Below, one piece after another: positions 2,151 to 56,555 of a stretch of DNA of 64,000 bases. The notes under the pieces are model-generated. The model saw only the letters and a program-made list of their open reading frames with translations, did not search any database and was not told the origin of the DNA. Location of the stretch: positions 1-64,000 of the forward strand of contig NBIV01000246.1 in the NCBI GenBank assembly GCA_003194525.1, read 5' to 3'. This stretch comes from Gracilariopsis chorda (lineage: Eukaryota; Rhodophyta; Florideophyceae; Gracilariales; Gracilariaceae). Each line of letters starts with the position of its first letter. Position 1 is the first letter of the stretch. Position numbers and translations under genes: made by a program.

Positions 2151-3989
2151 ATGGGTGATAAAAGCGCGTGCTCTGTCTCCGGTTCTCCGGTAAATCCCTC
2201 TGCACCAGAGTCATCGAGCGCACAAACAACAACAACAGCTACCCTCCGAAAGGGGGAAATGAACAACGACAACAATATCAACAACCACAGCCAACCTCCG
2301 AGACTTCTCGGGCGATACACCACCGGTTTCCGGTCAGTTCCCCTGCCTCAGGGCGATCGACATCCGGTACAACCGGGGAATATGGCTGCTGCAGCCGACC
2401 ATCCCTTCGCACTACCACCTTCGGTGGTGTCCTCCAGAACCACTCCGGTGTCCAACTGGCCAACCTACAACACCCTGGTGGGGCTCAACCCGATGAATCG
2501 GAATCACGCGTCGCGCCTGCGCCTTGCCCCGTGGTTCCACCCGGTCGCTGTCCTCAATGAGGGATTGGTCACCGCTTATGCGGATGGCTCAGACACCCTT
2601 CCGGGGGATCTGCCCAGAGCAGTCACCACATCGTGGGATTGCGTCACCGGATTGCGATTCCGCGTCACCACCTCCGAAGAAATTCGGGCGAGACCGTCGC
2701 TGCAGCGCAGACCGCGTTGACGCGCATGGCGTACCAACGGCAGAGCCGGGCTCCATTCGATGTACCGGTCCCACCGGAGTTTGGCTTTGACGTTAGCTAC
2801 TTCTGCACTCGCGGGGAGATTGGGTACGGCGAGAACCTGTTCCGCCTCGAGACCGTCGCTTGGAGTAATTTCCCCGCAGCGCGACAAAAAGCCCTTTGCT
2901 GGGAGCGACCGATTATTCGGGTGCAGTTCAGTACCTTCCCCGGCAATACCGGTCCAACTTTCTCCAAAACTTCATCCGCTACAAGCGGCGTTTGCGATCC
3001 CGATTCGGGTATTTTATCCCGTATCAGAACGTGGAGATAGAGCGGATTGCGCTGCCTCACCGACTAGGTCGGTATGTAGCACTCCCCGAGTGGTGGCGCT
3101 TCCATGAAGCCTGCCGGGGGTGCTACATAGAACTCCCGCCGGTACTTACGTACCTTGGTTCGCTGCTCATGCAGGATCCCCGGTCGGGTTGTGGTCCGTA
3201 GTGGTTACGGAGTGGGCGGCCTGCAGTGCGGCTTATATCCTCAACGAGGCGTACGACCAGTATCGTCTCTGGTTCCTTCAACCGCGTGTGCGGGCAGCGA
3301 TCCGAAACCTGGATCTTCGCATCCCCCTTGGGGGCCAGGCCAACAATGAAGAGGCCCTCCAATTACTTGGGTACATCGACAGCGTTAGCTGGAGTGAGGT
3401 CCCGCTGGAGCAAAGCGGTCGTGTGGATGGCGGTAGCGGTAACACCGGTGGTCCGGGACTCGGTAGAAACACCGCCTTTGCGGGGGATTTTATCTACTTC
3501 GACCCCTGGGAGTTCCGGGAAATTTCCTCCGAGGAGGCGCGCGAGCTTCGCGATACGCCCTGGCATGTGCCTGAAGACCACCCGGTGGGGTACGTCGATT
3601 CTGACGACTACTACCGCGCATACGGCGGGGATGATCCAATAGTCGATAACGAACCGGAAGAACCCGGGGAGATGGACGTAGAGGAAACCGGCGCTAGCGC
3701 GGAAGCTTTCCAAGAGGGGGTATCTCCGGCCGAGCCGGCTGCTGACCCTTCGGCGGCAAGTGCCGGACCTTCTATCCCCAGCGGGGTGACGGCGAATGAA
3801 AACGAAATCATCGCACGTTTCCCCCGAGGTGCCGGTCTGAGCGCTGCCGAGGTATCGGGGGATGTCACCACTATGGCGGACGCGTTGGCCTACCGCCTCG
3901 CTGGTGGTTACGCCCTGGACGATGGGGTGACTGAAACCTCTAGTCCAGTTTCCTGGTTCTTCTTTCCCTGGCTATGCCATTTAGTGTAG
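2151..3989 (+). pseudogene. Antisense accessory ORF of element A (broken)
   Basis: This is homologous to B's intact 615-codon antisense ORF at 40564-38717. It has the same place (between pol and the 3' LTR) and the same orientation (opposite to gag-pol). Shared blocks include LAPWFHP, FGY-IPYQNVE-ERI, the CRGCYIELPPV block, VVVTEWA, YDQYRLWF, RIPLGG and VPLEQSGR. The homology changes frame near 2640, near 2930 and near 3190, so three small indels break it. From 3190 to 3989 the frame is open and well conserved, with an acidic, Ser/Ala-rich tail. The start at 2151 fits an SGSPV motif shared with B's N-terminus. No known family is recognised. It begins 58 bp inside the LTR edge. Confidence 0.85.
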
Positions 3990-16900: not shown

Positions 16901-18461
16901 CCCAGCGGCCGGGGCTTTAGAGTTCATTGCTATGGATATCCTAGGGCCATTTCTGAAGTCGACCCACGGCAACCGATTTATATGGTTGATTACCGATCGG
17001 TTTGCCAAGTTGACCTGAGCAATTCCGCTCAACTCAACAACCGCCACGGACGTCGCCATGGCTTGCCTTGCATTGGATTTATCCCTATGGACTGCCGCTC
17101 TATCTCCTTACGTACAGTGGCTCTCAGTTTATCTCCAAAGTTTTAGAGCATGTGTGCTTGGCCTTAGGTCTAAAACATCTCATCACCACCACGTACCATC
17201 CTCAGACCAATGGACAAGCCGAAAGGTTTAACCAAACCCTGGCCAAGAGGCTAGTTTACTACGTTTCCGAGCACCAATTGGAATGGGATGACTATGTTCA
17301 GCCGCTGATCTATGCATATAATAATCAAGTACATAAGTCCACTGGTGCAACTCCTTTTGAACTCACCCTCATACGTGCCCCTGCGCCGTACATGGTTGAC
17401 CTACAAACCTAGGAGCACCTCAGGACATAACGGAGGAAATGACTCCCGCCCAGGCCAAATGGTATTCGTGGAAGCGAATTGATCCTATATTGAAGGCCGC
17501 GCAGACCACGTTGGCCAAAGCGCAAGGGCACTATTAGACCGATATCGATCGGTCCATTTGGTTTACACCACAAGTGGCCGTCGGAGATTACGTTCACTTG
17601 GACAGACCACCGAAGGAAAAGCCCGAGGACGAGGATATCATCAAGAAGCTGTTGCCAAAGTCCACTGGGTCTTTCAAGGTACTTAAGACCCTCGGGCACA
17701 CGGTTACTATCGACCGAGATGGGCTCCAGAACACAGTCACAATGAACCGAGTCTCTCTGGCGCCACGCCCACCTTCAACTGAACCATTGGACTCGCGCGC
17801 TTTCCCTTCGTCCCAAACCCCACCCTCCATCTCTACGCAACCACGAGTCAATGACCTTACAAACCCTCAGGGACCGCAGGTCTCTGGGGATCCAGAAGGC
17901 CCCTCCCCCGATGGCTACGGTCCCCTGGATGATATGGTACTCCCGGAAGAAGTACCTGACCCTATGGAAACCCCCGACGCTGTTCCTTCGGACGCTGACG
18001 GGTACGGTCCCCTCGACCAGATGGACCTACCGGAGGACACCGGAATGAACGACCAACGGGAGTATGTCGTCGACTGCATCGTTTCCCCTGGGCTCACCGA
18101 CGATGGCGAAGTGCGCTACAAAGTCCGTTGGTATGGCTATGAGCCCAAGGACGATACTTGGCTCCCGAGGTCAGACATCCCGGATAAATTTGTAGCCTGC
18201 TATTTGTCAAAAACAGGCCACACGGAGCGTGAACTTAAGGAGGGGGTATCCCTGGCTACCAATTTGCGAAAGCACGGGCCCAATCCGCCTCCACGCAATA
18301 GAAACACTGCTTTTGGCCACGGTGCCCACGGAACTGCCTCCCACGCCGCCCCACTCACTGGCCCCGCGCCAGTTCTTCCAAAGGTTTACGGCAACGATGA
18401 CCAACTTGGACGCCACATAACGCCGAAGTCCCTGGGTCATCAAGGCCGAAAACTTGAGTAA
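13992..18461 (+). pseudogene. Pol of element C: protease to chromodomain
   Basis: Domains in order: protease (VLDTGAGPNLVHP, near 14211), RT (YCIDYRELNAV at about 15215; YLDDVIIF at about 15510), RNase H (DTDASATQVGCALL; TEKECLAIVW), integrase zinc finger (LAHYPRLAG-PAG...CAPC, second His replaced by Leu), integrase core (MDILGP; LTYSGSQF; NGQAERFN) and a C-terminal part with chromodomain (EYVVDCIVSPG, YKVRWYGYEP, DTWLPRSDIP). The second catalytic Asp of the integrase is Tyr. Frame breaks or stops near 14302, 15270, 15720, 15950, 16394, 17018, 17410 and 17536. From 17574 to 18461 it is open. Not active. Confidence 0.88.
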
Positions 18462-18624: not shown

Positions 18625-20558
18625 TTACTGAGGACTACTGGCCATAAAAAAGACCACTAGCGACGCAGCCGGTTGAGAAGGGGATCCCATGCAGGTGCCT
18701 TTGCGAGCCAGACTCCGGGCGGAAGAGGATGAGGCACCACCAGCGGACTCCGTGTCCGAAAGGTTAAGACCAAAGCGGTTACCAAGGTCTGTCTCGACAC
18801 GCTCGGACAATACCTTTGAATTCACCTCCAGGATGGTCGCTAAGGCGTCTTTGACCTCTTGGTTATGCTGAACCAGCGAGTAGTACCGCCAAGCCCGACG
18901 AACCCAGGATTGGGCGGAACGAAAAGCCTCTACGATACCAGTGGGTTCAAGGATACCAATGGACGTGCATACCTTCTTCAGTTCATCGAAGGCCATTGTA
19001 ATCACCTCTGGAATGACCGGCACGGGAGGCGGAGGATGGACCACAGGGGCGGAAACCGTCATGGACATAGTAGGTGGGGAACCCAAGGAACCGATGGACG
19101 CCTCTGGGGGCTCTACAACGGCAACCTCGTGCGCTGGCAGGAAAGACGGTGCTACCGATGGGGCCGGTACAGGAACTACCGCCTGCTCCCGTACTGGAGG
19201 ACGAAGACAATCTTCGTGAAACCCAATGTCCTGAGGGTAGTAATCTGGCACGGACTGACGTGGCTCGTTCACGGGGACAGCCAGAAATAGTTTGGCCTGA
19301 TGGACGTTCCCGTCTTCATTGTCTAAAGGATGTTGCGGGATCGAGAAGAGGGTGTCGGTTTCATAATCGTACCAAAGAAACCCGGGGGTGTGCGCCCAGT
19401 CGACCTGAAGGACATAATCCAATAGGGGCTCCGCCTCTTCACTCTCGTACTCCGTACCCCGGACAATGTTCTGCACGTCCAACTCACGAATGAGCCAGAT
19501 CAAGGGCCGCGGAAGAGGCACGAGTCAGCGTTCAGGACTTGGAAGAACCTGCTCGTTCTAGATACGGCAGTCGGGCTCCCGGACGCTAGCTTGGACCCCA
19601 TAGCGGGCGTTATCCAGAAATGCCATCAAACAGAACAGGGCCCTTTCGGCGAAAAAAAAAACTGCCAGGTCAGCCAGGGGAGACGTTTAGTGAAGTCCCC
19701 CTGGAGCTCATAGGTGTGGTAGGTCAGCACAGACAGAGTAGGGACCATAAGGAGATTAGAAACGTGCCAGATGGCAGCCTCAGGTCCGGCGCTAAGTGAA
19801 GGTAGCATGAGATATAGAGAAGACCTGTGGGACGGAGGCATATCGTGTAATTCCACTTGCTGCCAACAGAAGAAGTACTTGAGGTTGGTTCGAATACGAC
19901 CATCGAGTTCGATCATATCATTCCAATAGGTCCGTTTCGATAACCAGTACAAGCGGTTGTATGGAGGTCTGAAGCAGACTAACCCCAGGATTTTATGACC
20001 AGGGGGGACGAAAGGAGCCCTTAGGGTCGCCATGCATCGAATACAAGTCCTTCAGGAGCTTGTTTACTCTCCATTGGTAATCCGCCTCCTCGCCGCAGCG
20101 GACAAAGGGCATATCCGGTAGGACCAGATAGTGGCAGCGCGCAACCGAACGGGCATCAGCAGGAAGGTGGAGCCAACGGTTGTACCAGGAGTTCTTCTTC
20201 GCACAGGCGTAGTTGGGGATCGCAGCGAACCACCGGGCATCGAATGATTGGTCAAATACCGCACAGACTCGGCGAATGAACTTGGTAGATGGGTACTCCT
20301 CACGTTCATAGGATTCCGACCCAAAGTGTGGTCGTACTTCTCCCCGGGGGGGGCATATGCACTGCTGGGGACCAGATCCATGTTGGTCGATTCTACAGTT
20401 ATTGCCACCCAAGGGGTACGCTCGAAGCTGCCATATTCCAAAAGGTAGCCACGGGAGCGCCTATATGCCCCCGAGGACATGGCGTAGACGCCGTCAACAA
20501 GCCAGCACAGCAGACACGGCGCCAGGGGAAACCAACGGTCAGGAATCTGAAAGGCCAA
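18625..20558 (-). pseudogene. Antisense accessory ORF of element C (diverged, broken)
   Basis: Minus-strand frames 20558-20320, 20412-19993, 20033-19626 and 19521-18625 form one broken gene, opposite to C's gag-pol and between its chromodomain and 3' LTR. Similarity to B's antisense protein is weak but in order: LPADAR near WRSVPAARQDA; YFFCWQQVELHD near YMIPYQNVEVER; IRELDV...LLDYVLQVDWAHTP near IRALDL...LLDFIDQVDWASVP. The C-terminal part (19100-18625) is Pro/Val-rich and then charged. Place, direction and this ordered similarity suggest a common origin older than the split of the two families. Exact start not determined. Function unknown. Confidence 0.65.
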
Positions 20559-21007: not shown

Positions 21008-21533
21008 TGTAGGAGAATGACCATTGGGCAGGTGCAGTGGTGACGTAACCATGGGGCTGGGCTGGCAGATGTCAGAACATTGCTGGCCGAAATATTCCAC
21101 GTGGCCAAGCTGGGTGCCTATGCAGAAGATACGAGGGGACAGTACGAGTTCCAAGGCACTGTGGCCATAGGTTTTGTTATGTAGCCAATTTTATGTAATT
21201 TGTTAAGATAGTTTCCGGAGGTCAGAGCGCCTCGCCAGTCATATAGGTTGGCTCGAGTGCCACCGATCTCTGAAGCGTAAAGACAAGCACCCTCACCGTC
21301 TTCTTGCCGCCATATGCAGCCACTAGGACTCCAAAGGCCTCCAAGCTATTGCTACCATTCTACCGACCTGTAGGGACTTGAGATAGCGCCCGCCCACTGC
21401 GCCCCGCTGCCAGTTGGTGCCAGCGTCACTAGTAGACCCAGTGGATTGTCACCCCAGTGGTTCGCTCTCTGCCGCTACTAACCCCTAGTAGACTACTACC
21501 CCAGTTGGCAAAAGGGCGTATTATTCTACTACA
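21008..21533 (+). repeat. 3' LTR of element C
   Basis: 526 bp, starts TGTAGGAGAATGACC and ends TTCTACTACA. The reverse complement is at 49685-50210, with the same length and clearly more substitutions than between B's LTRs. Unlike A and B it is short and begins TGTAG rather than TGAAGTGCAA, which supports treating C as a different family. Confidence 0.92.
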
Positions 21534-21538
21534 CCTGC
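21534..21538. repeat. Target site duplication of element C (3' side)
   Basis: CCTGC follows the LTR. Its partner is GCAGG at 50211-50215, inverted today by the 37-kb inversion. Confidence 0.85.
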
Positions 21539-29837: not shown

Positions 29838-29842
29838 ATGCC
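29838..29842. repeat. Target site duplication of element B (5' side)
   Basis: ATGCC, repeated directly at 41503-41507. Confidence 0.93.
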
Positions 29843-30745
29843 TGAAGTGCAATCCTCCAGGAGAAAGGCTCAGCGATGCCCTGTGGACTTGATGTTTTTG
29901 CCGCTTTCGCATGTTTATGATTGCTACCGCTATTAGCGGGTGTCTCAGCCCTCAGCGGATCCGCACTGGGCACCAGGTGCACACCTGTGCATGCGCCGTG
30001 TGCCGCCCAAGGTGTGAGTGGACCACGTGTGACACGGATAGTCAAGAGGAGGTTGGCACCACGGTGTGGACATTTAGTTAACTTATATTTATTATTTATT
30101 ATTTATCTACGCTACAGTAGGGAGATTACTACACTATATAGTGGCTCGGCGACCTCGCCCTGACACTGAGTAAACTCCCCCAACCAGGGGTTCTTGGCTC
30201 TAAGTCTTTTCCGCTTTCGCGAGTCTTCTACACTCCTCGGAGGTAAAGCCGCGTTACTAACGGTAGACCTATCCACCCTGCGTCACTAGGAGTATCACCG
30301 CCTTGGGCACTTGTCACTTAATTCACCACCGCCGTGTTCTCGCCCCTGTATAGGGTTTCTTTTGTACCTTTTTCCGTGGTCCCGTTGGCCCACACCCCCG
30401 TCGCCCCCAATCGGGCATCCCCCGTATTTCCCCTACCCCACTCTCGTGGTTTCTGCCCCTTTGTGTGGTTGCCCGTCACCGCTGACGCGTGTCTCTCGTG
30501 CCGGTATCCCGTGACGTCTTCCCCACTTACGTGGACTCGTGCTCCTTGGAAGGGCTGTTTTCCCATTCGTGGTGATCCTAATCCTACCGTTTCAACTCTC
30601 CCCGCTTGGCGTGAGGGTGAGCCTCGGCTTTACAACCCGACTTCGTCCTGCTCATCCGGAGAGGCTCCGTTCGCTGTGTTACCCCATCGAGGGGAAGATT
30701 CCGAACGTCTTCGTGTGTTGTCCCGCTTGCGGGTATTGCACTACA
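29843..30745 (+). repeat. 5' LTR of element B
   Basis: 903 bp, TGAAGTGCAATCC... to ...TTGCACTACA. I counted eight mismatches by eye against the 3' LTR (40600-41502), under 1 percent, so the insertion is recent. A TATATA box-like sequence lies at 30136-30141, preceded by an AT-rich run (30078-30105), which fits a U3 promoter with transcription starting some 25-30 bp later. Several short perfect hairpins such as CCGCTATTAGCGG (near 29929) and CCCGCTTGCGGG (30722) are present. Confidence 0.95.
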
Positions 30746-30860: not shown

Positions 30861-32975
30861 ATGTCTCGGCGACCATCCTCCGCCGAACCCGTTGTCACGC
30901 GGAGTCGTTCCGTCAGTGACGTGGAACAGGCAGAGATCTCGAAGGTCCCCGCTGGCAACCCTCGACGTGCCACTTGGAAAGGCAAGTCGAAGGGCCAAGA
31001 CTCGTCGAGAGCCCAGAAACCCCCGCCTAAGGCGTTGAAGGACGCTCCCAACTCTGGTGTCGACCCGGCTTCTGCCGATGTAGCTGCACCCCGGAGGGGA
31101 GACCCCGATACCGACGCCCCCCCTAGTGTCCAAGCGCAGCTTGAGGAGATGCGTGAAGCACACAATGCCCTCGTGGAGGAGTTTGAAGTCCTGCGTGTCA
31201 GGTTTGATACCTCTTCTATGAAGGATTTGGTTGAGGACATTCGCCTTTTAAGGGCGGATGTCAACACTGTGTTGGAATGTTTTGGTGATCCTGCCAACTA
31301 TGTTGAGAATGTGGAAACCCGATTTGATCGTGTCAGTGCCCGTCTGAGGACGTTGGAGCAAACTATCTTGATGGATGACAACGTCCCGGGTGAAGCCGCT
31401 GCTGTCTCGCAAAAAGCGAAGCGCGAAAAGAAAGATTCTACCCGCCGCACTCGTAAGAAGCAGCCCAAGCACGATCCCGACTCGTCGGATTCCTCCCTGT
31501 CTTCACAGGATTCTCCCCATTCAGATGGTTTGGTTTCGTCGGATTCTTCATCGGACGATGATCGTCGCCGACGCCCGTCCCATTCTAAACGGTCTTCTTC
31601 CACCCAAGGTGTGATTCGCCCCCGGAGGAAGGGAAGGAAACACTTAGGATTGAGGGAACTCAAATGTACTAATCCCCTCTACAAGAGGTTGGTATCGTAC
31701 TGATATTATCGGCTTGAGGACTCCTCATTGGATCGTACACCCCGTGGTACGGGTAAGGTGAAGGACTGCATAAAGCGTATGCAGCTTTCCCTTCGTAACC
31801 AGTCCTTTTCTGGAGATGATCCAATATTGGTGTTAGACTTCCTCGGAAGATTCGTTTCCGAAGCGAACATACTTGGTATGAACGAAGGACAGGCGTTTAT
31901 TGCCCTACCGTACTTTCTGCGTGGCCTCGCTGAGGATCAATACAACTCTGTAAGAGGTTCTTCCCGAGCCTCCGAAGGAGGTGTAACGTGCTGGCCGGAA
32001 GCGGTTCAGTACCTCTTGCGATCCTACGCGACGAACAACGCTATTCAAGCGGCTATTCTCGCTTTACGCGATACCCGCCAGAAATGTGGAGAGACGGAAA
32101 CCGAATTCTCGGTACGCCTCAATAAGGCTTTCCACAGGTGTGGCAATGTTTACTCGTCGGGAGAGCGCTGCACCATGTACATCGATGGATTGGATCCGGC
32201 AATCCGTACGCTGGTGGCCCGATATCGGGAGGATCGTCGTAACACCACCTACCTGGAGTTGATTCAACACGCGCAAGCGGAAGGTGATGCACTTCGAGCT
32301 CGTATCCCTGCATCGAAGTCTCGTCCCGCCAAGGCGTTGATGATGGAAGCCAGTTCACCATCTTTATCGCTAGCAGCTAGTGGACGCCCTTCAAGGGACT
32401 GCGATAACGTTTACCTCACTCAGGCCGGCGCTCAGTCTATTCCGACCACGGAACTGCCGTCCACGACGGATGCGTCCTACGACACAGCTCAGGAGAATTC
32501 CCTGCTGTATGTTGACGGACCCCGTGTTCACGGACCTCGCATCCCCTATTCGAATGGTGCCCTCCGGCAGAGTCGTCCAGGATGGAAGGATACCCGCCCA
32601 GCGGTGAGACACACGGATGATCGTTCCGGTCAGGCGCCCCCACGCTCGGGAGTCGTATGCCACATATGTTACGAACACGGTCACATTTCACCGGACTGCA
32701 TCCTCACTTTGAGAGAAGTAACCCGAGTGATCGGTAACTATGAAGCCCTTACTCCAGCGGAGAAGCAGACCGTTCCGATTGCCTCGTACTTACGAGCGAA
32801 GACGGACTTCCCCCGGAATATCCCGGATACGAACCCACGACACGCGTTGCTTTCCCCTGCTGAGCAGGTCACTAACCCCCGTCTTGTTCGACAAGACAAC
32901 CTCGCTAGCGCTCCACTGCTAGTGGTTCAGGATTCTGAGACCCCGCCTCAGGCGGAACGGGCTCAGGAAAACTGA
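30861..32975 (+). pseudogene. Gag of element B (one internal stop)
   Basis: 704 codons from MSRRPSSAEPVV to a stop at 32973-32975. A single TGA at 31701-31703 interrupts it. A has CGA (Arg) there (LLSYRYYRL), so one C-to-T change made the stop; the frame continues unbroken after it. Parts: Ser/Pro-rich N-terminus, helical segment, basic plus Ser/Asp-rich block, capsid-like region (MQLSLRNQSFSG, LDFLGRFVSEA, LPYFLRGLAEDQY), zinc knuckle CHICYEHGHISPDC (C-x2-C-x4-H-x4-C). Binds and packages the element RNA in related elements. The stop follows GGAAAAC, the same junction as in A. Confidence 0.92.
32966..32975 (+). promoter_or_regulatory. Candidate -1 frameshift site between gag and pol
   Basis: G-GAA-AAC followed at once by the gag stop TGA. 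Pol is open in the -1 frame across this point. A has the same GGAAAAC then TAA (9861-9852), though the flanks differ. The heptamer is not a textbook X-XXY-YYZ, so frameshifting here is inference. Re-initiation is the alternative. Confidence 0.45.
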
Positions 32976-35900
32976 TTTTGGGAGTCTCCCCTACGGGAGA
33001 GGCGCCCTCAGAGTTGAGGTTGAAGGCGCCCGAGGCGTCACTGCCTCGCTCCCCGATCAAAATCCTTACTAGGAAACAGGCCGTCTCAGACGTGAACTCT
33101 GAACACTTTAGTGTTCTGCGTCGACCGTGGAAACGTGTTCGAAACAACCGGTTCCCGGACCGAGTTTTGGTAATGGCCAAGAGAAACTACAAGGTATATG
33201 CTGACCTTGGCCTTTCCACCCAGTTTATGGTGCGAGTTCTCACTGTTTTGGACACAGGTGCAGGCCCGAACTTCATCGTTGAGTCCCTCCTGCCACCGTC
33301 ATTGCAGTCTCAGATCCGCCATGGCGTGATACCGGATGTCGCGGATGCGAATGATAACCCGTTATCAACGGTTGGGACAATCGACCTGGTCGTGCGCCTT
33401 GGCTCCTTTCTTGTGAAACTCAACTTTATTGTTTGTCGGAAACTTGCCGCCCCTTTGATCTTGGGATGCGACTTCTGTGACAGATTCGTCGATGCCATCA
33501 GGCCCCGTCTAAGACGTGTGGAAATGGAAGACGGCTCCTCCGTTTCGATCGTACGTCGTCCTCTACGACGTGCCTCGAAGAAGCACGTTCCATTACCTGC
33601 TGCGCAGGAACCCCCACCGGCTTCCCGGGACTGTACAAAGCTCCGCGTTGCCGCGTCTGTCCAACTTCCACCGGAATCCCAAGTTTGGGTACGAGTCACT
33701 TCCCGTCAACACGGTTTACGAGTAATTCAACCCCTTTCATCCCTATATGATAGGTATCAACTCGCCGTGGCGAATGGAGTAGCTCAAATTGAGCCCGACA
33801 AACCGTTTAACGTGTTGGTCGCCAATCTAGGCCCTACACCCCAGTCACTGGTGAAAAACCAAGTCATTGGCTCGGTAATGCCCCACCCCACCGCGATGGT
33901 TCCCACGAGAATGACTGCCGCCGATGTCCTCGGTCTCGTTCACTCTAAGGAGGGGGAGGACACTGCCGTCCAAATGCCGAAATGCTCGGATGCTAAGCCC
34001 GTTCCAACGAGTTACGACCGGATTGATCCCGTGAAAGAACTCGAGGAACTTGACCTCGGTCATGTGCCGGAGTCGCACCGTGAACGTCTCCGTGAGATGC
34101 TACGGGATTTCACCACAATTTGGGATGGCTCCTTAGGGGAGATTGCCACAACGGAACACCGGATTGACTTGCTACCTGATACCAGGCCGATCGCTCAGCA
34201 CCCCTATAGGGCAGGCCCTAGAGCTCGAGAAGAGGAAGACTTCCAAGTGGAAAAGATGCTCCGAGCTGGAGTAATTGAACCGGCTCAGCCGCCGTGAGCA
34301 TCTCCAGTGGTACTGGCTCCGAAACCAGATGGATCCTGGCGCTTTTGCATCGACTACCGTCGACTGAACGCCGTAACCATCAAGGATGTGTACCCGATCC
34401 CACGAATGGATGAATACATCGATTCACTCGGAAGTGCTACCGTTTTCACGGCTCTAGACGCCAATTGGGGATACTGGCAGGTGCCCGTCAGGAAACAGGA
34501 CCGCGACAAGACTGCTTTTGTCTGTCACTCCGGACTCTACCGTTTCAAACGGATGCCTTTTGGTTTGACCAATGCTCCCGCTACTTTCCAGCGTGCTATC
34601 GACATACTACTTGCTCGCTTTAAATGGCGTACATGCCTCGTCTACCTGGACGATATCATAGTATTCTCAGATAATCTGGATGACCACCTCACACACGTGA
34701 GAGATATCATGACCACGCTACGTGAGGCTGGAGTTACTCTCAAGTTGAGGAAATGTGAGTTCTTTACAGATACAGTGAAGTATCTGGGCCACATAATCCG
34801 CCCTGGGCGTGTGATGATCGAGGAAGCTCGAGTTAAGTCGCTCCGTCAAGCGAAGGAACCCGCCACTCAAACGGAACTACGCTCCTTTCTAGGATTAGTC
34901 AACGTCTATCGACGGTTTATCCCGAATTGTGCGGACATCTCAGCACCCTTGAACGCGCTCTTGCGGAAAGGCCAACCACCGAAATTGGAACCTTTTACGT
35001 CTGTCGAGACGAATGCGTTTAACTCCCTCAAGGGGGCTGTAACATCAGCACCGATCTTATCGTTACCGAAACCTGGACTACCGTTTACCGTAGACACGGA
35101 TGCTAGTGACTACCAAGTAGGTTGCGCTCTCTTTCAGACAACTCCGGAAGGATAACGAACCCCTATTGGGTACTGGTCACGCTCACTGAATGTTCACGAG
35201 CGGAATTACTCCGTCTCAGAGAAAGAGTGTCTTGCAGTCGTGTGGGCACTCTCCACTCTCCGCCCCTATCTTATGGGTGTGCACTTCACCGTTTACACGG
35301 ATCACTCGTCATTACGATGGCTCATGACAGTCTCTGAACCGTCAGGCCGCTTAATGCGCTGGAGACTCCGCCTTGCGGAATTCGACTTCGAGTTGATCTA
35401 CAAGAAGGGCACAAAGAACGCTCAGGCGGACGCGCTGTCGCGTTTACCCACGGATGGTGAAACTCTACCCACTGGGGACGAGGACATTCCTTGCTTCGTC
35501 GTCGACGGTCGAGAACCGGAGGCCCCGGACCGTGAACCCGATAACTCGGATGAAGAACCGGAATCGGATGATGACCTGGACGCACTACACGTCTCGGACG
35601 ATGCTCAGAAACCCCCACCGGGTAATTTCGTGCCAATACCCCCGGAGGAGATGGTCAGAGAACAACAAGGTGATCCCTTCTGTACTCAGATTCGCGCCCG
35701 ACTTAATGGCGGCGTGCAACTCCCTTTCGAGGTGAATGATGTTGGATACCTCGTCAGGACGGTTCAAACAACCCCACAAGTAGTGGTACCGCATACTCTA
35801 CAATCTAGAGTGTTGCACTTGTCGCACTACGCGAAACTTGGTGGACACGCAGGTGGACGGAAACTTTACCTCACGTTGCGACGGAGTTATTATTGGCCAG

Positions 35901-38527
35901 CCATGGCTGTGGAATGCTACGCGACTGTGCGGTCATGCACGGAGTGTGCCAAAAACCGGGTCAAACTCCGGAAGCACTCAACGAAGTTGAAGTTATTTCC
36001 AGCATGGGCCCCTCTCGAGTTTGTCGCAATTGACCTCTTGGGACCGCTGCTCACCACAAAGCGTGGACATAAGTTTTTACTCGTTATCACGGATCGTTTC
36101 TCCAAGTTGGTTCGCACCGTACCTTTACGGAAGATATCCGCTTTCGCGGTGGCGCAAGCCTTCGTCACCCATTGGGTATTTGTCTACGGACCACCGGTTA
36201 ACATTCTATCCGATAACGGAAAGCAATTCGCATCGCGATTCTTCGAAGATGTGTGTCGGATTCTCGATATCAAGAATCTGTTCACAACGACCTACCACCC
36301 CCAGTGTAATGGGCAAGTCGAGCGGTTTAACCGAACGCTGTTAGCCTCTCTCCGTTCTTACGTTGCTGATCACCCCAAAACATGGGACTTGTACACTGAC
36401 GCCTTGACGTTTGCGTATAACACACAGGTACACCGTACAACGGGTTTGACTCCATTTGGATTGGTACTTTCGCGTCATCCGCCCGCCGTAGCGTTGGAAC
36501 CCCAGCCTACGCTGGCAAACTTCCCTTCCGTGAAGGATTATCGCCAACGATGGAAAGCGTGGCTTACGAAGTTAATCCCGGTCGCCCGGAGCTCTATGGC
36601 TCGAGCACAGGCCGCGTACAAGCGTGATTTTGACTCTCGTGTACGAGGTACAGCACCGCCAATTAAGGAGGGTGACTACGTCTTCGTCCGTAAGGAGCAC
36701 TGGAACCCTGATAAGGAGAAACGGCATAAGCTCTCACCCGTCGCGAACGGTCCCTACAAGGTCATATCAGTGGATAACGACACCTTAGTGGTGGAAATGA
36801 ACGACGCTCAGGAGCGAATTTCCCGCGATCGCGTTGTTATGGCACCGCCACCATTCGTAGAGGTTGCTTACCAAGATGAGAACAAACACACCCCAGCGGA
36901 ACAACCTACATCTGTGGTTAACAGGCCTTCTGTGTTGCCACACCCTTCAAGGGAACTCTCAGATATACCGTCCTTATCGGACGCAGGCCCGAATGGCCTT
37001 TCTTCTCTAACGCCACCGCGCGGTGTCTATCCCCGCAGTTTGGGCGCTTCTACCACTCCCCATGCCGCTCCGTCTAAGGAGGGGGAGGAGGATCCTAACT
37101 CTCGTCGAGAGACTGAAACCGATTCGTTGCGTCATGACAACCGTGGTGCACGGACCTCCGGACACATCGAAAAGGATAATAGTGGACCGAGAGTTCCGTC
37201 TACTGACGTGCCATCTTCGCATTTGCATGCTACAGCTACTGCTGAACCCTCTCGAGGAAGTTCTACCGCATCTGCGCCAGATCGCACTCCCCACCAGGAT
37301 TCTAGTCGTCAAGATGCACCACACTGTGGGAAGTCCCTCGCCAAAGTGAAATCATCGCAGGAAACTATTCGCGTTCGCGATACTGAACCGGCTGTGCCGT
37401 CGAGCGTTGATCCGCATTCCGTGGGTCACGGTTCGTTAACAACAGCTACGCTGGATAATGCAGAGCAGGTCCTCACGGGATCCTCTGAGCCGACTACACC
37501 GGACGTGGTAACTTCTACTGCATGGCAGAACACACCGGCCAGGGCGGGCAAGCACACTGTACAGGACGGAAGGAAAACGACCAGCAAGCTGGATTCTGGT
37601 TTAGGACCATCGCGCAGTAGCGAACTCGCTCCGAGTGTCTCGGTTGATCCGGACAGTGTCACCGAGGTCGCACCGGTCACTCCGGAAGGAAAGCACGTCA
37701 AAGACGGAAATAATTCGTCGCCGAGGCGAGCCAACACACCGGCAGCACCGTTGCAACCGCCCTCACGTGAGGAGGCGGAACGCGACACGGCGCAGACAAC
37801 CCTCGACCATCCGTTGCAAACGGCACGTGACCGCCACACCGTACGGACGGCAATGGCACCAGTCACCGCCCGAGGCGAGCCGACGCGTACTGTACGACGC
37901 ACCGTGGTGCAACCGACTTCGCCGTCTGGAGCACCCCCGTCAAGACGGATATCTACACCCAAACCTGTGGTTCGCGACCCAGATGCTCATCTTTCAGATG
38001 CGTTAGAAGCCCCTCAAAAGGTATGGTCAATAGACGCCCCCTCAAGGAGCGAAGAAACCGCGAAGCGGGATACTTTAACCCACAGCAAGGGTCCCGATAC
38101 GCACCATCAAGTGGTCGACGCAACCGGCCGTGCCGAGGACCTCCAGACCCGCGAAACGGATGAACCTACCCGGAAACCGGTTAATGACCCCTCAAAGGGC
38201 ATGGACAGGCAGTACCAAGCCATGCCCCTTCCGGGGAAGACTGTCCAACACCCACCAGTGGTGGTAGAGCCTGCCGTGCAGGACGCGATAATGCGAACAC
38301 GGCGAGGCCGGGAAGTCTACAAGCAGGAGTTTGTTATTGACCACATTGTGGATCATTCTTACCATCCAGATGGTTACATCCAGTACCGCGTACGCTGGTA
38401 CGGTTTCGGGCACGAATATGATTCGGATGAGCCGATAGAGCACCTCCCACGTTCGAAAGTGGTGTCATATCATCGCAGAACGCGAACGGGAATCCCGGCA
38501 TCGGTGATAAACGCCCAACTGGGATAA
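32972..38527 (+). pseudogene. Pol of element B: protease, RT, RNase H, integrase, chromodomain
   Basis: Domains in order: aspartic protease (DTGAGPNF, 33251), RT (CIDYRRLNAV, 34348; YLDD, 34643-34654), RNase H (DTDASDYQVGCAL, 35095; KECLAVVWAL), integrase zinc finger (HYAKLGGHAGG...CTEC, 35820-35950), integrase core with all three acidic residues in place (AIDLLGP, LSDNGKQF, NGQVERFN), a 450-residue Ser/Thr/Pro-rich linker (36900-38290), and a chromodomain (EFVIDHIVDHS, YRVRWYGF). The chromodomain has DSDEP where A has DTWEP. Two in-frame stops, 34295-34297 (TGG to TGA) and 35153-35155 (TAA), interrupt an otherwise open frame. Apart from these single-base stops the gene looks whole. Confidence 0.93.
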
Positions 38528-38716: not shown

Positions 38717-40564
38717 TTACGGGTTGGAACCGCCCCCACCTTGGTGGTTATTTCCCTGGAGTCGGGCTATCAGAGCATCCCGCATCGCGGTGACATCGCC
38801 ACTGGCCTCGTTACCTCCCAGCCCCACTTGGCGGAGGAACTGAGAGAGCACGGCAGCCTGACCCGCAGGGGCCACGTTCGCCTCACCTGGCGTAGAGGAC
38901 CCACCAGTGGGAAGACCGACCGACGGATCGGACGGCTGACCCGCAGGGGCAACTCCAGGAGTATCCATGCCATATGGTTCTCCCTCCGCCTCGGCGTGAC
39001 CGGCACCTTCGTTGGGCTCGTTGTCGAACATCGGATCCTCACCGTCGTAGACGTTGTAGTACTCATCGGCGTCAACAAAACCAGTCGGATGCCCCTCGGG
39101 GATATATCTCGGTGCAAACCGGAGCTCGTTCGCTTCCTCCGCGGAGATCTCATGCCCCTCCCAAGGGTTAAAGTAGATGAAGTCACCCGCGAGCGGAGTT
39201 CGACGCCCTGGCGACAGGTCCTGTATTCTGCTACCGGCAGTACGCCCACTCTGCTCTAGAGGAACTGAAGCCCAGTCAACCTGGTCGATGAAATCGAGGA
39301 GTCCCGCTACTTCGTCAGCGTTTGCCTCACCACCTAGTGGGATTCGTAAGTCCAGCGCTCGGATGGCGGTACGAACCCGCAACGGGATGAACCACAGTCT
39401 GTACTGGTCATAAACCTCCCAGAAGATGAAAGCCGCTGTGCAGACCGCCCATTCGGTGACCACCACGGACCAGAGCCCGGACTGAGGATCCTCGATGAGG
39501 TATGAGCCGTAATACGTGATCACGGGAGGCAACTCGATGTAGCAACCTCGGCACGCTTCGAGATGCGACCACCACGGTGGAATGGGAACGTACCGACCCC
39601 GTCGGTTCACCACGCGGATGCGTTCGACTTCCACGTTTTGATACGGAATCATATACCCGAATCGGGACCGTGCTTGCCGCTCAAAGCGTATCATCGACAA
39701 GAAGTTGGCTCTCGCCAAGCGACGCATATAGCGGAATTCAGCCCGAATGATGGGTCGTGTCCAGCAAACCGCGTCTTGACGCGCCGCGGGAACGCTTCTC
39801 CACAAGAGTGGTTCCAAACCCGCGAGGCGGTCGAGGTACCCCATTTCACCTTGGGTGCGATACAATCCGATGTCGGAGCCCATACCATCGGGGATGGGGT
39901 ACTCAAAGGGAGCCCGGCGAAGCCGTTGATGAGCGAGTAAGACCAACGCCGCGTGCGCGGAAGCTGCTGATTCCCGACCCCGTCGGATTACCGTGTGCAC
40001 GGGTATCGCTATGCGGTTGCGCCAATCCCACGAAGTGGTCACGATTGCTGGAACGTCGCCCGGTAGCATTCCGTTTCCATCGGTATACATCGCCAGAAGC
40101 GCATCATTGAACACCGCAGTCGGGTGGAACCACGGCGCCAGCCAGAGAGTCATCGCGTGTTTCGCAGGCTGCAGTCCGACCAGCATGTCGTATGACGGCC
40201 ACGCTGCCATTGGATACCCTCCCGCGGGAGTTGCACTCGCATTTGCGCCTGGATGCTGCGACGAAGTCGAGAGACCGCTCTGCGGTAGAGGCACGGAATG
40301 AAATCCGGAGAAGTACTGTAACGGTGTGTTGTCGCCGGCGTTGCTGTTGTTGCCGTCGTTGTCGTTGTTGTTGTTCATCGTAGATGAAGGAAGCCGAGGA
40401 ATCGGAGAAGAAGGCCGCGAAATCGTGTGTGTTGTTGGAAAAACCTCGTGAGAGTTGCTCGAAGATTCGCTGTTCGCAGCTGTGTGCTCGTTACCCCGAG
40501 TGGGATCGAGAACCGGCGAGCCGGACTTACATTTAAGGACCTTTTCCGGTGCTTCCGTCGCCAT
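38717..40564 (-). CDS. Antisense accessory protein of element B, intact
   Basis: 615 codons, no interruption, on the strand opposite to gag-pol. Start MATEAPEKVLK; 35 bp separate it from the 3' LTR, whose U3 end faces it. Residues 1-90 are polar and disordered (Asn/Asp/Ser runs); 100-510 form a dense, Trp/Tyr-rich core with LAPWFHP (142-148), FGYMIPYQNVEVERI (302-316), CRGCYIELPPV (338-348), VVVTEWA (367-373), EVYDQYRLWF (383-392), LDLRIPLGG (404-412), VPLEQSGR (434-441); 511-615 is acidic then Gly-rich. No signal peptide or membrane segment obvious. No known domain recognised; not a gag, envelope or RNase H that I can see. Conserved in A, C and D. In B it stays open although gag and pol carry stops. 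Confidence 0.85.
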   Translation of the reverse strand: MATEAPEKVLKCKSGSPVLDPTRGNEHTAANSESSSNSHEVFPTTHTISRPSSPIPRLPSSTMNNNNDNDGNNSNAGDNTPLQYFSGFHSVPLPQSGLSTSSQHPGANASATPAGGYPMAAWPSYDMLVGLQPAKHAMTLWLAPWFHPTAVFNDALLAMYTDGNGMLPGDVPAIVTTSWDWRNRIAIPVHTVIRRGRESAASAHAALVLLAHQRLRRAPFEYPIPDGMGSDIGLYRTQGEMGYLDRLAGLEPLLWRSVPAARQDAVCWTRPIIRAEFRYMRRLARANFLSMIRFERQARSRFGYMIPYQNVEVERIRVVNRRGRYVPIPPWWSHLEACRGCYIELPPVITYYGSYLIEDPQSGLWSVVVTEWAVCTAAFIFWEVYDQYRLWFIPLRVRTAIRALDLRIPLGGEANADEVAGLLDFIDQVDWASVPLEQSGRTAGSRIQDLSPGRRTPLAGDFIYFNPWEGHEISAEEANELRFAPRYIPEGHPTGFVDADEYYNVYDGEDPMFDNEPNEGAGHAEAEGEPYGMDTPGVAPAGQPSDPSVGLPTGGSSTPGEANVAPAGQAAVLSQFLRQVGLGGNEASGDVTAMRDALIARLQGNNHQGGGGSNP

Positions 40565-40587
40565 CGTGGATGTCGTATTCGCACCTC

Positions 40588-40599
40588 AGGAGGGGGATA
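40588..40599 (+). other. Polypurine tract of element B
   Basis: AGGAGGGGGATA abuts the 3' LTR. It also lies in the 35-bp gap upstream of the antisense ORF. Confidence 0.82.
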
Positions 40600-41502
40600 T
40601 GAAGTGCAATCCTCCAGGAGAAAGGCTCAGCGATGCCCTGTGGACTTGATGTTTTTGCCGCTTTCGCGTGTTTATGATTACTACCGCTATTAGCGGGTGT
40701 CTCATCCCTCAGCGGATCCGCACTGGGCGCCAGGTGCACACCTATGCATGCGCCGTGTGCCGCCCAAGGTGTGAGTGGACCACGTGTGACACGGATAGTC
40801 AAGAGGAGGTTGGCACCACGGTGTGGACATTTAGTTAACTTATATTTATTATTTATTATTTATCTACGCTACAGTAGGGAGATTACTACACTATATAGTG
40901 GCTCGGCGACCTCGCCCTGACACTGAGTAAACTCCCCCAACCAGGGGTTCTTGGCTCTAAGCCTTTTCCGCTTTCGCGAGTCTTCTACACTCCTCGGAGG
41001 TAAAGCCGCGTTACTAACGGTAGACCTATCCACCCTGCGTCACTAGGAGTATCACCGCCTTGGGCACTTGTCACTTAATTCACCACCGCCGTGTTCTCGC
41101 CCCTGTATAGGGTTTCTTTTGTACCTTTTTCCGTGGTCCCGTTGGCCCACACCCCCGTCGCCCCCAATCGGGCATCCCCCGTATTTCCCTTACCCCACTC
41201 TCGTGGTTTCTGCCCCTTTGTGTGGTTGCCCGTCACCGCTGACGCGTGTCTCTCGTGCCGGTATCCCGTGACGTCTTCCCCACTTACGTGGACTCGTGCT
41301 CCTTGGAAGGGCTGTTTTCCCATTCGTGGTGATCCTAATCCTACCGTTTCAACTCACCCCGCTTGGCGTGAGGGTGAGCCTCGGCTTTACAACCCGACTT
41401 CGTCCTGCTCATCCGGAGAGGCTCCGTTCGCTGTGTTACCCCATCGAGGGGAAGATTCCGAACGTCTTCGTGTGTTGTCCCGCTTGCGGGTATTGCACTA
41501 CA
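40600..41502 (+). repeat. 3' LTR of element B
   Basis: 903 bp, same length and ends as the 5' LTR at 29843-30745. Its U3 edge is directly upstream of the antisense ORF, so it is the obvious place for a promoter firing in the reverse direction. Confidence 0.95.
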
Positions 41503-41507
41503 ATGCC
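41503..41507. repeat. Target site duplication of element B (3' side)
   Basis: ATGCC, direct repeat of 29838-29842. Confidence 0.93.
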
Positions 41508-43737: not shown

Positions 43738-43834
43738 TGAGACAAGAGAAAATCGATGCTCCCTTCCCTCTGGTTGTCTCGCTGGCGGGCAGAGACTTTA
43801 TTGTGTGTCGCTACGTGTACACTACGTGATGACA
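43738..43834 (-). repeat. 3' LTR of the gag-only copia-type element
   Basis: 97 bp. On the minus strand it starts TGTCATCACG and ends CTTGTCTCA. It matches 44814-44910 with a handful of substitutions. Very short for an LTR. Confidence 0.88.
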
Positions 43835-43948
43835 GCGTGATTATGTGTTCGCGTCTGTTTGAGAGCGCACGTCAGTGCGTGATGACACGCCCTCCGACGC
43901 GAGCAGGTGAGTGCGGGTCGATATCAAACATTTTCTGGGGTGGTCGGG

Positions 43949-44809
43949 TTATTGTTGATTTAGAATGCTCTCGTATTGTTCCAGGCGGTGTTGGGTTTCA
44001 CTAATAGTGGTTGGGGGTCTGTCAAGCATTAGATTGACAGCTCGTTGAGAAAAACGATGGTCATTAACAAGGCCCTGAAGAATGTAGTTGATGGTCACTC
44101 GTTCGTCGGATATTCCAGGAGTATTGGCTGAAATGTATTTGCGGCGAATAGCGAGGGGGCTCGCAATGTATTCCGAGATAGTTCCAGTGCGGCGGAGGTT
44201 CATTGCTTCAGTGGTGAGGCTAAAGTACTTTTTAGCCGATTGATTGTCAATAACGCGTTGGATACCGTGAAATATTGCTGCTGGGGACTGATTGAAGATC
44301 GTAGGATCAGCGAGCATGTCACTGACATCTTCAGTGATGCTTTTTGTAATGATACGGCGGAGATTGGCGGTCGCTTTGTGGTCTTCGCTGGTCGTGGGTT
44401 GAAATGTGATGGAAAGTAGTTGTTGATATTCATGTTCCGTAAGAATATCGTCAAGGTTTTGTCTCCACTGGATATAATTTTGGGCAGTGAGTTCAACGAG
44501 TTCTTCTGTAAACCGCCAGGAAGGATGAGTTATTGGCATTGCAGGGAAACTAGATTGAGAAGGCCAGCTCATTGTATAACTGGAGCTGGTGGTTTGAAGT
44601 TTGGCGTTTGTCCACAAATCTGACCAGATGAAACTAGTTTCACGGTAGTGCGCACGTTTTTCGCGGTCCGTGAGGTGGGAAAACGAATGTGGACGAAGAC
44701 AGGGAGATACGGGAGCAACGATCTGACCAGGAAACACGGGAGCAACGCTCTGACCGCGGATCGATTGCGGTTGTTTATGTTTGTGGCGCTGTGGCGCGCT
44801 GGTGCCCAT
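43949..44809 (-). CDS. Gag-like protein of the copia-type element
   Basis: Intact, 286 codons if it starts at the ATG at 44809-44807 (MGTSAPQRHKHK). The frame is open for 34 more codons into the LTR (to 44911), but that ATG lies outside the transcript start expected from the LTR. Features: a disordered N-terminus, then a helical region with SWRFTEELVELTAQNYIQWRQ, LADPTIFNQSP, ANTPGISDERVTINYILQGL. The NYIQW / W-x-x-L and I...YILQGL pattern fits the copia gag (UBN2) family. No zinc knuckle, so RNA binding would rest on the basic N-terminus. The start codon lies inside the primer site. Confidence 0.75.
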   Translation of the reverse strand: MGTSAPQRHKHKQPQSIRGQSVAPVFPGQIVAPVSPCLRPHSFSHLTDREKRAHYRETSFIWSDLWTNAKLQTTSSSYTMSWPSQSSFPAMPITHPSWRFTEELVELTAQNYIQWRQNLDDILTEHEYQQLLSITFQPTTSEDHKATANLRRIITKSITEDVSDMLADPTIFNQSPAAIFHGIQRVIDNQSAKKYFSLTTEAMNLRRTGTISEYIASPLAIRRKYISANTPGISDERVTINYILQGLVNDHRFSQRAVNLMLDRPPTTISETQHRLEQYESILNQQ

Positions 44810-44813
44810 AACC
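44799..44813 (-). other. Half-tRNA primer binding site (initiator Met)
   Basis: The plus strand CTGGTGCCCATAACC closely resembles the anticodon arm of eukaryotic initiator tRNA-Met (CTGGGCCCATAACC). The minus strand, directly adjoining the 5' LTR, would pair with it. Copia-type elements with half-tRNA primers are known. The gag ATG pairs with the CAU anticodon. Confidence 0.7.
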
Positions 44814-44910
44814 TGAGACAAGAGAGAATCGATGCTCCCTTCCCTCTGGCAGTCTCGCCGGTGGGCAGGGACTTTATTGTGTGTCGCTACGTGTACACTA
44901 CGTGATGACA
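44814..44910 (-). repeat. 5' LTR of the gag-only copia-type element
   Basis: 97 bp, same as 43738-43834. Confidence 0.88.
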
Positions 44911-48413: not shown

Positions 48414-49218
48414 TGAAGTGCAACGCCCTCAGGGAGGGATTCTTGGTACTTGAACGCTTTCCCGATATTATCGGTTGTGTAGTGTGTATATGAACTACGC
48501 CCCACTATGGTGGATATGGACACGTGGGACAAGGTTTTGGGTCAATTGGCGGTTGGCCACAGTAGTGGATGTTGCCACGAAATGTGGAGTATTTTAGTTA
48601 ATATTATTTATTACTTTCACACCCATTTCTGGGAAGCTAGTACTTAGTGCGACGGCGCACTGCCGTCGCATCAGTAAACCTTCCCCAACAAGGGACCCCA
48701 ACCTGGGGAATTGGCTCTAGTTGTTGCCGCTTGCGCCCGTACTCTACTCCTCCTTGGAGGGAAACGCCGTAAACCACGGGACATCTAACCCCCTTGCACA
48801 TCTAAAGGGACCCATCACTGGGAGTATAATTGTTCCAATTGCATTGGTGTTTCGCCTTCTATAGGGATATTGTTACCGGCATCACCGTTCGTCCCCGTCG
48901 CTCTCGCGACTCACTTCGCCCTTCCTTTTTCCCCTTTTTAGGGTAGCACCTCCCGCTATCCGCAACCCTCTTGTGCGCATCCGCTCACACACCCCCACTT
49001 ACGTGGAAACATACCTCTACTGAGGATCACACCCCGCTCACGCGGATACCGATTCTTCGCCTTCACCTCCCTGCGCGAGTCGCGACAGGTGTCCCTGGTC
49101 TTACAAACCGGCTTCGCCGTGACACCTCTGGGAGGGCTCTACCCAACTGGGTTCACCTCGTGAGAGGAAGATCCCGAACGTCTTTCGGTGTTTTTCTCCT
49201 TTGGGGCATTGCACCACA
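48414..49218 (+). repeat. 5' LTR of element A
   Basis: 805 bp, TGAAGTGCAACG... to ...TTGCACCACA. It is a reverse-complement partner of 1294-2092. Followed by two or three spacer bases and the PBS, which identifies it as the 5' LTR. It is now in the opposite orientation to the rest of the element. Confidence 0.92.
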
Positions 49219-49660: not shown

Positions 49661-49682
49661 GGGCTTCTAGGTCGGTAGACCA
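49661..49682 (-). other. Primer binding site of element C
   Basis: Minus strand TGGTCTACCGACCTAGAAGC, two bases from the LTR end; one base different from A and B in the first 16, so probably the same tRNA. Confidence 0.8.
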
Positions 49683-49684
49683 GT

Positions 49685-50210
49685 TGCAGTAGAGTAATTC
49701 GTTCTTTGGCCAGCTGGCGTAGTGGTTTACTAGGGGATAGTAGCGGCAGAATGCCAGCCACTGCGGTCAAAATCCACTGGGTCTACTAGTGACGCTGGCA
49801 CCAACTGGCAGCGAGGCGCAATGGGCGGGCGCTATCTCAAGTCCCTACAGGTCGGGAGAATAGTAGCAACGGCGTGGAGGGCTTTGGAGTCCTACTGGCT
49901 GAATATGGCGGCAAGAAGACGGTGAGGGTGTTTGTCTTTATGCTTCAGAGATCGTCGGCACTCGAGCCAACCTATATGGCTGGCGAGGCGCTCTGACCTC
50001 CGGAAACTATCCTAACAAATTACATAAAACTAGAAAAATAATAAAACCTATGGCCACAGTGCCTTGGCACTCGCACTGTCCCCTCGTATATTCTGCATAG
50101 GCACCCAGCTTGGCCACGTGAAATATTTCGGCCAGCAATGTTCTGACCTCTGACAGCCCAGCCCCATGGTTATTTCACCACTGCACCTGCCCAATGGTCA
50201 TTCTCCTACA
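49685..50210 (-). repeat. 5' LTR of element C
   Basis: 526 bp, partner of 21008-21533. Ends CTACTGCA here against CTACTACA in the 3' copy. Confidence 0.92.
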
Positions 50211-55639: not shown

Positions 55640-56555
55640 CTGAGGAAACGGAGATATCACATGGGCATTCAGGGCTTTACTCATCACGGACGTGGCTGAT
55701 GCCTCTGGTTTGGGGGAAACAAGAACCGGCGCAGCCGAAGGACCAGATGAAGTCGTAGGGAAAAAAGACGTCGGAACCGAAGTTTACGGGTATTAATGTC
55801 CCCGGTCACTGATTAACAAGATCTCCCCATGCCACAGGCGCATTCCCGTCATCCTCATCATGAGCATCATCCAACATTGTATTTTGTGCATCCGCCACGT
55901 GGAAGAACTCGTGGGTGACGACAAACCTAGTTAGGTTTCCCTCCACCGTAGTTCTCTCTGCTTCTCGCAGTATGAATGCCTCGCATCGAGTATTCGTCAC
56001 TCGTGTCCACGGATCTTAAAAGGTGAAATCACACGCAAGGGCATTCCTTTTCCGTGGTGATCCCTCGCTCGTGTCTAACTCATCGTTGCAAGCCGACCAG
56101 GCCACTTGCACCGCATTCCAATGTGTATGGTCGATAAAATCGAGTAGACACATCAGCTCTGAAACGTTTTCAGTGTGACCAAGCGTCATTGAGAAGTTCA
56201 GGAACCGGATACGACGACCAAGTGTCAGTGAGATGTAGCAAAGGGCAATATTGGTCGTAAACCTCGTGGGAAAGGTATACAGCCGTTCGCGCATCCCATT
56301 CTGTGTTCACAACGGACCACCAACCCGTGAACGGGATGATTAGTGGTTGGCTAGCCACATAGTGATGCAAGGGGTGAGCTCCACATAGCACCCCAGGCAC
56401 AAACCTCAGTGGAGGCCCACATGAATGAAATCGGAACATATCTTCCACACATGTGGCAAGGGCGAAGTCCATTCCCTTCATTGTTCTGATAAGATATATG
56501 ATATCTCCAAAGGGAACAGCTTCGTCGTTCAAAACGAATCATTCTCTGAAGATGC
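55640..56555 (-). pseudogene. Antisense accessory ORF of relic D (C-terminal part)
   Basis: Opposite to D's pol, as in A, B and C. Recognisable: MIRFERRSCSLWRYHISYQNN (56550-56490), WWSVVNTEWDARTAVYLSHEVYDQY (56320-56245), LLDFIDHTHWNAV (56140-56100), NALACDF (56040) and a weaker tail with EFFHVADAQNTML (about 55910-55865). The N-terminal half is missing: at about 56556 the sequence switches to a gag on the same strand. Broken by frame changes near 56290 and elsewhere. Confidence 0.75.

Follow-up and report, generated by a model that had tools for sequence, protein, structure and literature searches.

Genes that run antisense to gag-pol, between pol and the 3' long terminal repeat (LTR), have been described mainly from retrotransposons of flowering plants, and in the passages cited here the need for them is argued from their presence and conservation (PMC11963269, PMC7264820). 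In the Retand elements, the antisense open reading frames (ORFs) encoding TRP28 (PF04195) are reported to be kept in nearly all young families, and a regulatory role has been proposed for them (PMC11963269). Antisense ORFs are also described in maize Grande (gene23), rice RIRE2 and bean PvRetro13, with gene23 having an antisense transcript from its own promoter and a product reported as nuclear, and, outside plants, in the fungal element Boty, again between pol and the 3' LTR (PMC7264820). The antisense gene of the human T-lymphotropic virus (HTLV), HBZ, has its antisense promoter in the 3' LTR (PMC11963269, PMC7264820). Here, we analysed a 64,000-nucleotide window of the genome of the red alga Gracilariopsis chorda (part of contig C246), in which a chromodomain Ty3/gypsy element, element B, carries an ORF that is antisense to gag-pol and lies between its chromodomain and the polypurine tract, with counterparts in the elements A, C and D of the same window. 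This ORF is a conserved, probably accessory, protein gene of red-algal chromodomain Ty3/gypsy elements, with fixed place and strand and common descent across lineages.

The antisense gene: copies, selection and age

Element B is a complete insertion flanked by a 5-bp ATGCC duplication, and its two LTRs differ at 8 of 903 sites. It is a chromovirus, with RNase H, integrase and then a chromodomain inside the LTRs, all three being Pfam matches within positions 35273-38527, and with the protease and reverse transcriptase (RT) part of pol named by position alone. The predicted ORF of 615 codons, opposite gag-pol and lying between the chromodomain and the 3' LTR, was confirmed as intact (Table 1). 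It stands tail to tail with pol, 189 bp apart, and the same stretch holds 14 and 22 stops in the other frames of its strand and 12-18 in the three opposite frames.

The antisense gene was found in at least six element lineages of the 91.3-Mb G. chorda assembly, with more than 200 matches, rather than in the two families of carriers originally proposed; the genome searches score the best candidates only, and all copy counts are thus lower bounds. At least 68 of the 74 matches listed for B are B-type (the other six being A-type), and an ORF of 603-615 aa is kept in 15 of the 30 loci fetched. The A family has many open copies elsewhere (595 aa) although its copy in the window is broken: by hand count, at least 58 among 82 matches listed are A-type, 55 of these 58 without a stop, and 18 of 19 fetched loci keep an ORF of 594-613 aa. 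The expectation that the frame would be kept in other copies was thereby borne out. A further group, with mostly 643-aa open frames, accounts for at least 53 among 82 matches listed (loci not fetched). The L061/L062 types are represented by 20 rows picked from 74 listed, further rows at 49-64% identity being left out, and the L034/L040 types by 12 places, with a thirteenth (C158) left out. C-type matches number at least 148 as listed, many of them old and with stops, and at ten additional places the match comes in two pieces with an open frame of 738 aa; one of these rows has a stop.

The arrangement opposite the chromodomain recurs throughout these lineages. Of the B-type antisense rows, 64/68 are accompanied by a chromodomain end on the other strand at a distance of at most 3 kb; conversely, among 83 B-type chromodomain ends drawn from 150 listed, 61 are followed downstream by an opposite-strand gene and none by a same-strand one, most gaps being 196-197 bp. 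For the other lineages, chromodomain rows were picked by hand from 450 (50 A, 36 of the 643-aa group, 24 L061/L062 and 12 L034/L040), which makes the counts lower bounds and uninformative on same-strand cases: a chromodomain end lies opposite within 3 kb in at least 34/58 A-type and at least 33/53 643-aa genes, and in all picked rows of the L061/L062 (20/20) and L034/L040 (12/12) types. None of the places of the P0012 lineage was paired with a chromodomain among the 450 rows listed. In place and strand, and in its presence in most family copies, the gene is an antisense additional ORF (aORF-3R). The distance to the chromodomain, about 200 bp in B, A and L061, is at least about 1.45 kb in the L031-L036 copies (C556:9657-11110 and equivalents). 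We considered whether the L031-L036 lineage is a non-autonomous form devoid of a chromodomain and rejected this, since the domain is found about 1.45-1.9 kb away.

Within the window, A and D share blocks with B, as originally noticed, and match it directly (Table 1). Comparing B and C directly gives a single short match (E 0.002), and the two are bridged by L064, an open member of the C lineage (735 aa), which tblastn aligns both to the C relic (20244-18676, E 2e-102) and to B, in the frame of the B gene (39874-38849; 23% identity, E 5e-8). Against a profile of 14 proteins (B, A, L034, L040, L061 and L062 types plus P0001 and P0002), L064 scores 33.1 bits, compared with 2.1 for the best of 500 shuffles; hhalign gives a probability of 97.1 and a score of 89.3, the best of 60 shuffles reaching 1.1 and 24.5 (-mact 0.05 for the true pair, default settings for the shuffles). 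Judged by these comparisons, the antisense gene of C is a true distant relative of that of B, with a similarity far above shuffled controls, in line with the proposal that the gene is older than the split of the families. Element C also has the same layout, with its chromodomain on the plus strand and the antisense relic on the minus strand, and the matches in A, C and D keep the place and direction that had been claimed for them.

Selection on the frame was estimated by the Nei-Gojobori method. Between lineages, dN/dS is 0.22 (B-L034), 0.27 (B-L040), 0.28 (L034-L040 and L034-L042) and 0.31 (L040-L042), ratios that are rough, as dS exceeds 1 in all these pairs and is saturated for B-L042; for L061-L062 it is 0.18. 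Using other genes of A and B as yardsticks, dN/dS is 0.06 for RT, 0.10 for the integrase end, 0.14 for gag and 0.11 for the antisense gene, and pN, which is safer given the saturated dS, is 0.12 for RT, 0.26 for gag and 0.32 for the antisense gene. Within the A family, mean pN/pS is 0.32 over the 120 pairs of 16 open copies (from 19; L046, L052 and L055 left out). We then counted variants in 19 A copies against L042, each variant once and skipping those in 18 or more copies. Shared changes comprise 37 silent, 25 replacement and 0 stops, and private changes 44 silent, 69 replacement and 4 stops. The shared ratio of replacement to silent changes (N/S), 0.68-0.72, is 0.23-0.29 of the neutral value of 2.5-2.9 (p 1e-8 to 2e-6), and the private one, 1.54-1.57, is 0.52-0.64 of it; L049 as reference gave a similar outcome. 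Constraint on shared changes together with relaxation of private ones is the pattern that a gene needed for spreading should show. The frame is thus a protein gene under purifying selection in spreading lineages, relaxed after insertion, and the anticipated dN/dS well below 1 holds both between lineages and within A, with recent B copies near neutral.

Protein searches covered 5.8 billion proteins, with the best ~8,000 candidates each, and among the candidates scored 14 relatives were found, none with a Pfam domain. The first searches returned P0001 and P0002 only, and the queries L062, L061 and L064 added 12, namely four from Agarophyton chilense, one from G. chorda (BWQ96_10156, here P0012) and seven from other contigs. 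Scans of viral contigs and of plasmids gave no relatives. Across lineages, the family proteins share 30-54% identity with B, and R217, E240, R278, R296, G303, P307 and E336 (B numbering) are invariant in an alignment of 18 rows, which omits P0001 and P0006. In a tree of these rows plus L064, the Agarophyton rows fall with L061, L062 and P0003 (100/99), the B/A/L034/L040 group stands apart (98/100), and L064 and P0002 form long branches. Because the A. chilense rows group with L061/L062 and not with B, the tree places the origin of the gene before the Gracilariopsis-Agarophyton split, unless it has moved between genera.

P0001 corresponds to the G. chorda record BWQ96_03215 and matches contig C30 at 100% over residues 1-491. 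An intron in its lineage, considered on account of two-piece matches at residue ~490, was rejected, as the frame is continuous in L032-L034 and L040; L031, the copy behind P0001, has a frame break near this residue. Both BWQ96_03215 and BWQ96_10156 give two-piece matches where sister frames are open, so their annotated introns may be artefacts. These records call for caution in annotation, the first being an element gene and the second a member of the family.

Protein, probable promoter and possible roles

The N-terminus of the protein varies among members. It is followed by a conserved core of ~380 residues (122-501 in B) with many W, Y and R, then by a proline/acidic tail and, at the C-terminus, by a short conserved segment of the form FLR..GL......GD...L...L..RL. 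The statement that it resembles no recognised domain held in all searches: no Pfam family was above cut-off in 18 aligned members (limit E 10, with filters that drop most matches above 0.1), five proteins gave no match in PHROGs, and matches in a PDB sequence search were absent or unconvincing. Several candidates for the C-terminal segment were rejected. A SAP/Ish1-like domain reached at best E 0.09 (Ish1) in one of ten proteins, below cut-off, and no SAP, LEM or Ish1 chain was among the four PDB rows for the C-terminal profile. The similarity of that profile to IcmE (E 6e-7) came from summed 11-residue repeats (best single i-E 97), and that to SecDF from one helix only (E 0.03 and 0.34).

In the four lineages measured, the ATG stands within 35-57 bp of the LTR: the spacer is 35 bp long in B, 47 bp in both L034 and L040, and 55-57 bp among three copies of A, the LTR start outside the B lineage being taken from the motif. 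With so little room, the antisense promoter probably lies inside the 3' LTR, where the antisense mRNA would start. The 5' LTR copy of such a promoter would fire outward from the element. A TATATA palindrome lies 333 bp upstream of the B antisense gene; an antisense TATA box common to the lineages was looked for and not found.

We favour, with a probability of about 60%, a true protein-coding accessory gene, probably expressed from the 3' LTR by an antisense promoter there, whose product may be a nuclear regulator or anti-silencing factor. The product would be a trans-acting accessory factor, and by analogy with Grande gene23 we tentatively suggest that its likeliest site of action is the nucleus, where it may affect how the element is transcribed, silenced or integrated. 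LTR activation, a block of silencing, an aid to integration and directed degradation cannot be told apart by sequence. A more specific proposal, which we regard as rather unlikely, is that since before the Gracilariopsis-Agarophyton split the elements have carried a counter-defence or targeting protein of unfamiliar fold, transcribed antisense from the 3' LTR. Such a protein, which has few lysines in several lineages, would resemble retroviral accessory proteins in its action, either neutralising silencing by the host or directing the integration that the chromodomain guides.

Several observations weigh against a nuclear regulator encoded by a constrained frame. The AlphaFold models are poor (mean pLDDT, the predicted local distance difference test score, 36.8 and 46.7), the best match of a Foldseek search of the PDB with such a model having E 9, and neither B nor A has a classical nuclear-localisation pattern; a basic, nuclear-signal-like pattern is present in L062, L064, P0002 and several more, including distant members. 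The upstream regions of the three A copies examined contain no TATA-like word, there is no shared promoter motif, and 22 of the 83 B-type chromodomain ends have no listed antisense gene. Besides the roughness of the between-lineage ratios, constraint is faint in the B family, with N/S of 1.63 for shared (4 stops) and 2.06 for private changes (17 stops) in 30 copies against a neutral 2.5-2.9, and with dN/dS of 0.82 between B and its nearest copy. Such a weak signal is as expected of a family that is now decaying. It also bears on the original argument that the ORF is open in B while gag and pol have stops: the stops are there, but B is young, and its openness by itself was rejected as proof of a gene, the strong evidence coming from other copies.

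The likeliest alternative is a structural or packaging protein (of the particle, nucleocapsid-like, movement or envelope-like) in place of a nuclear regulator. A protein of ~600 aa in many copies, with conservation near that of gag and models that, weak as they are, appear chiefly helical, would suit such a role, and a 19-residue Kyte-Doolittle mean of 1.85-1.99 in one core stretch of L061, L062 and P0010 leaves a membrane segment possible there. In A (L049), however, the mean nowhere exceeds 1.09, and in B it reaches 1.62 in a single window, which makes a common membrane anchor unlikely; moreover, the element already has a gag, antisense expression separates the product from the genomic RNA, and no Pfam gag or env family matches the protein. 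We consider a structural role unlikely, while giving it some weight. Less probable still is an adaptor of the ubiquitin system, which would target a restriction or silencing factor of the host for degradation and, being lysine-poor, itself escape ubiquitylation. Lysine deserts are reported to be common among ubiquitin-system proteins (PMC10169902, PMC10665810), and lysines number only 2/595 in A (L049:1480-3264) and 4/615 in B, compared with 40-48 in pol pieces of 828-1084 aa, with lysine-free runs of up to 561 residues in A (L049), 480 in B and 467 in L034. Asparagine and lysine codons share their first two bases, and in A, B and L034 asparagine is frequent and lysine scarce; for A, base composition predicts ~11 lysine codons where there are 2, and 11 asparagine codons where there are 27. 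Against this role, the scarcity is not family-wide (35 lysines in P0010, 17 in P0011, 15 in L064), the gag piece of B is also lysine-poor (7/398), and Pfam shows no adaptor family.

Regulation by antisense RNA, in which the reading frame would be incidental, has been proposed for some plant and fly elements and would agree with the description of LTR-element antisense transcripts that may act without a protein (PMC7264820), but the third-position excess, dN/dS of 0.2-0.3, the stop-free shared changes in A and the 30-54% identity require a protein. As the sole explanation it is largely refuted and very improbable, an additional RNA role being possible. We hold it equally improbable that one element captured a foreign gene, from host or virus, which was inherited thereafter and today plays no part in transposition. 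Cases in which LTR elements acquired additional ORFs are documented (PMC5408684, PMC7264820), and no relative outside the family was among the candidates scored. Yet those searches gave the 14 relatives, none with a Pfam domain, and selection acts on spreading copies and not on one fixed locus; capture may account for the origin of the gene but not for its upkeep.

Features of the window

The features of elements A to D are collected in Table 1. A Pfam scan of the gag piece of B (31779-32975) gave no match.

Table 1. Positions of the antisense genes and of the parts of their elements in the window
Feature	Element	Position	Strand	Remarks
Antisense accessory gene	B	38717..40564	-	615 aa, intact, ATG to stop
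5' LTR	B	29843..30745	+	903 bp, TGAAGTGCAAT...ATTGCACTACA
3' LTR	B	40600..41502	+	903 bp; expected seat of antisense promoter
Target-site duplication, left	B	29838..29842		ATGCC
Target-site duplication, right	B	41503..41507		ATGCC
Spacer, antisense ATG to 3' LTR	B	40565..40599		35 bp, holds polypurine tract (AGGAGGGGGATA)
gag	B	30861..32975	+	named by position; stop at 31701
pol	B	33173..38527	+	stops at 34295 and 35153
Chromodomain, end of pol	B	38330..38473	+	PF00385, 25.3 bits (cut-off 25.1)
Antisense gene	A	2178..3908	+	frameshifted, matches across three frames; E 2e-145 with B
Antisense gene	C	18676..20244	-	broken, matches in two frames; distant relative
Chromodomain, end of pol	C	18063..18188	+	PF00385, 31.6 bits
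Antisense-gene relic	D	55839..56542	-	E 2e-17 with B

Further repeats are present in the window. The segments 1306-2048 and 48459-49205 are inverted copies, 90-99% alike, the first of which adjoins the antisense gene of A; this is probably the LTR of A, recurring at 48.5-49.2 kb. Likewise, 21008-21537 and 49681-50210 are inverted copies, 91% alike, adjoining element C, and probably represent a C-type LTR with a second copy in the D region. At 43738-44910, two 97-nt direct repeats (94%) surround a lone ORF of 286 aa (43949-44809, minus strand), for which Pfam gave no significant match; at a guess, this could be a very small non-autonomous LTR element whose single gene resembles gag.

Comparison with known antisense genes

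Antisense ORFs at this place are, by the published descriptions cited above, a known kind, also outside plants. The original prediction named plant Tat/Grande-type elements as precedent, which stands for Retand and Grande and extends to the fungal Boty. As in Retand, the element is Ty3/gypsy and the ORF lies between pol and the 3' LTR; unlike Retand, a non-chromovirus of flowering plants, the element comes from a red alga and has a chromodomain (PF00385 in B and C), and TRP28 (PF04195) was absent in the Pfam scan of the 18 aligned members. The described place and direction are identical in Grande gene23, RIRE2 and PvRetro13, from which the present family differs in sharing no Pfam family, a distinction made by description, without sequence alignment; the SMC domain, a feature of PvRetro13, had no Pfam match in the antisense proteins. 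Whereas gene23 is reported to have a promoter of its own, the short ATG-to-LTR spacer of the present family leaves room for a promoter only within the LTR. Boty is alike in place and strand, again by description and not by sequence.

HBZ offers a parallel in that the antisense gene adjoins the 3' LTR, where a promoter would be expected here as well, as the short spacer implies. HBZ has a bZIP domain, for which no Pfam match was obtained in our proteins, and the likeness is one of description, not of sequence. From the envelope-like ORF3 of other elements the B gene differs in being antisense, not sense, to gag-pol. No report of antisense ORFs in red-algal elements was found in the open-access literature, and the red-algal hosts, the chromodomain setting and a protein family with no known relative appear to be new. 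This points to more than one origin of antisense accessory genes. The large family described here, without known relatives, bears the selective signature of a gene that elements need in order to spread, in a kind of element with many lineages and in two genera, and its hundreds of natural copies make it testable whether antisense genes of this sort serve the element.
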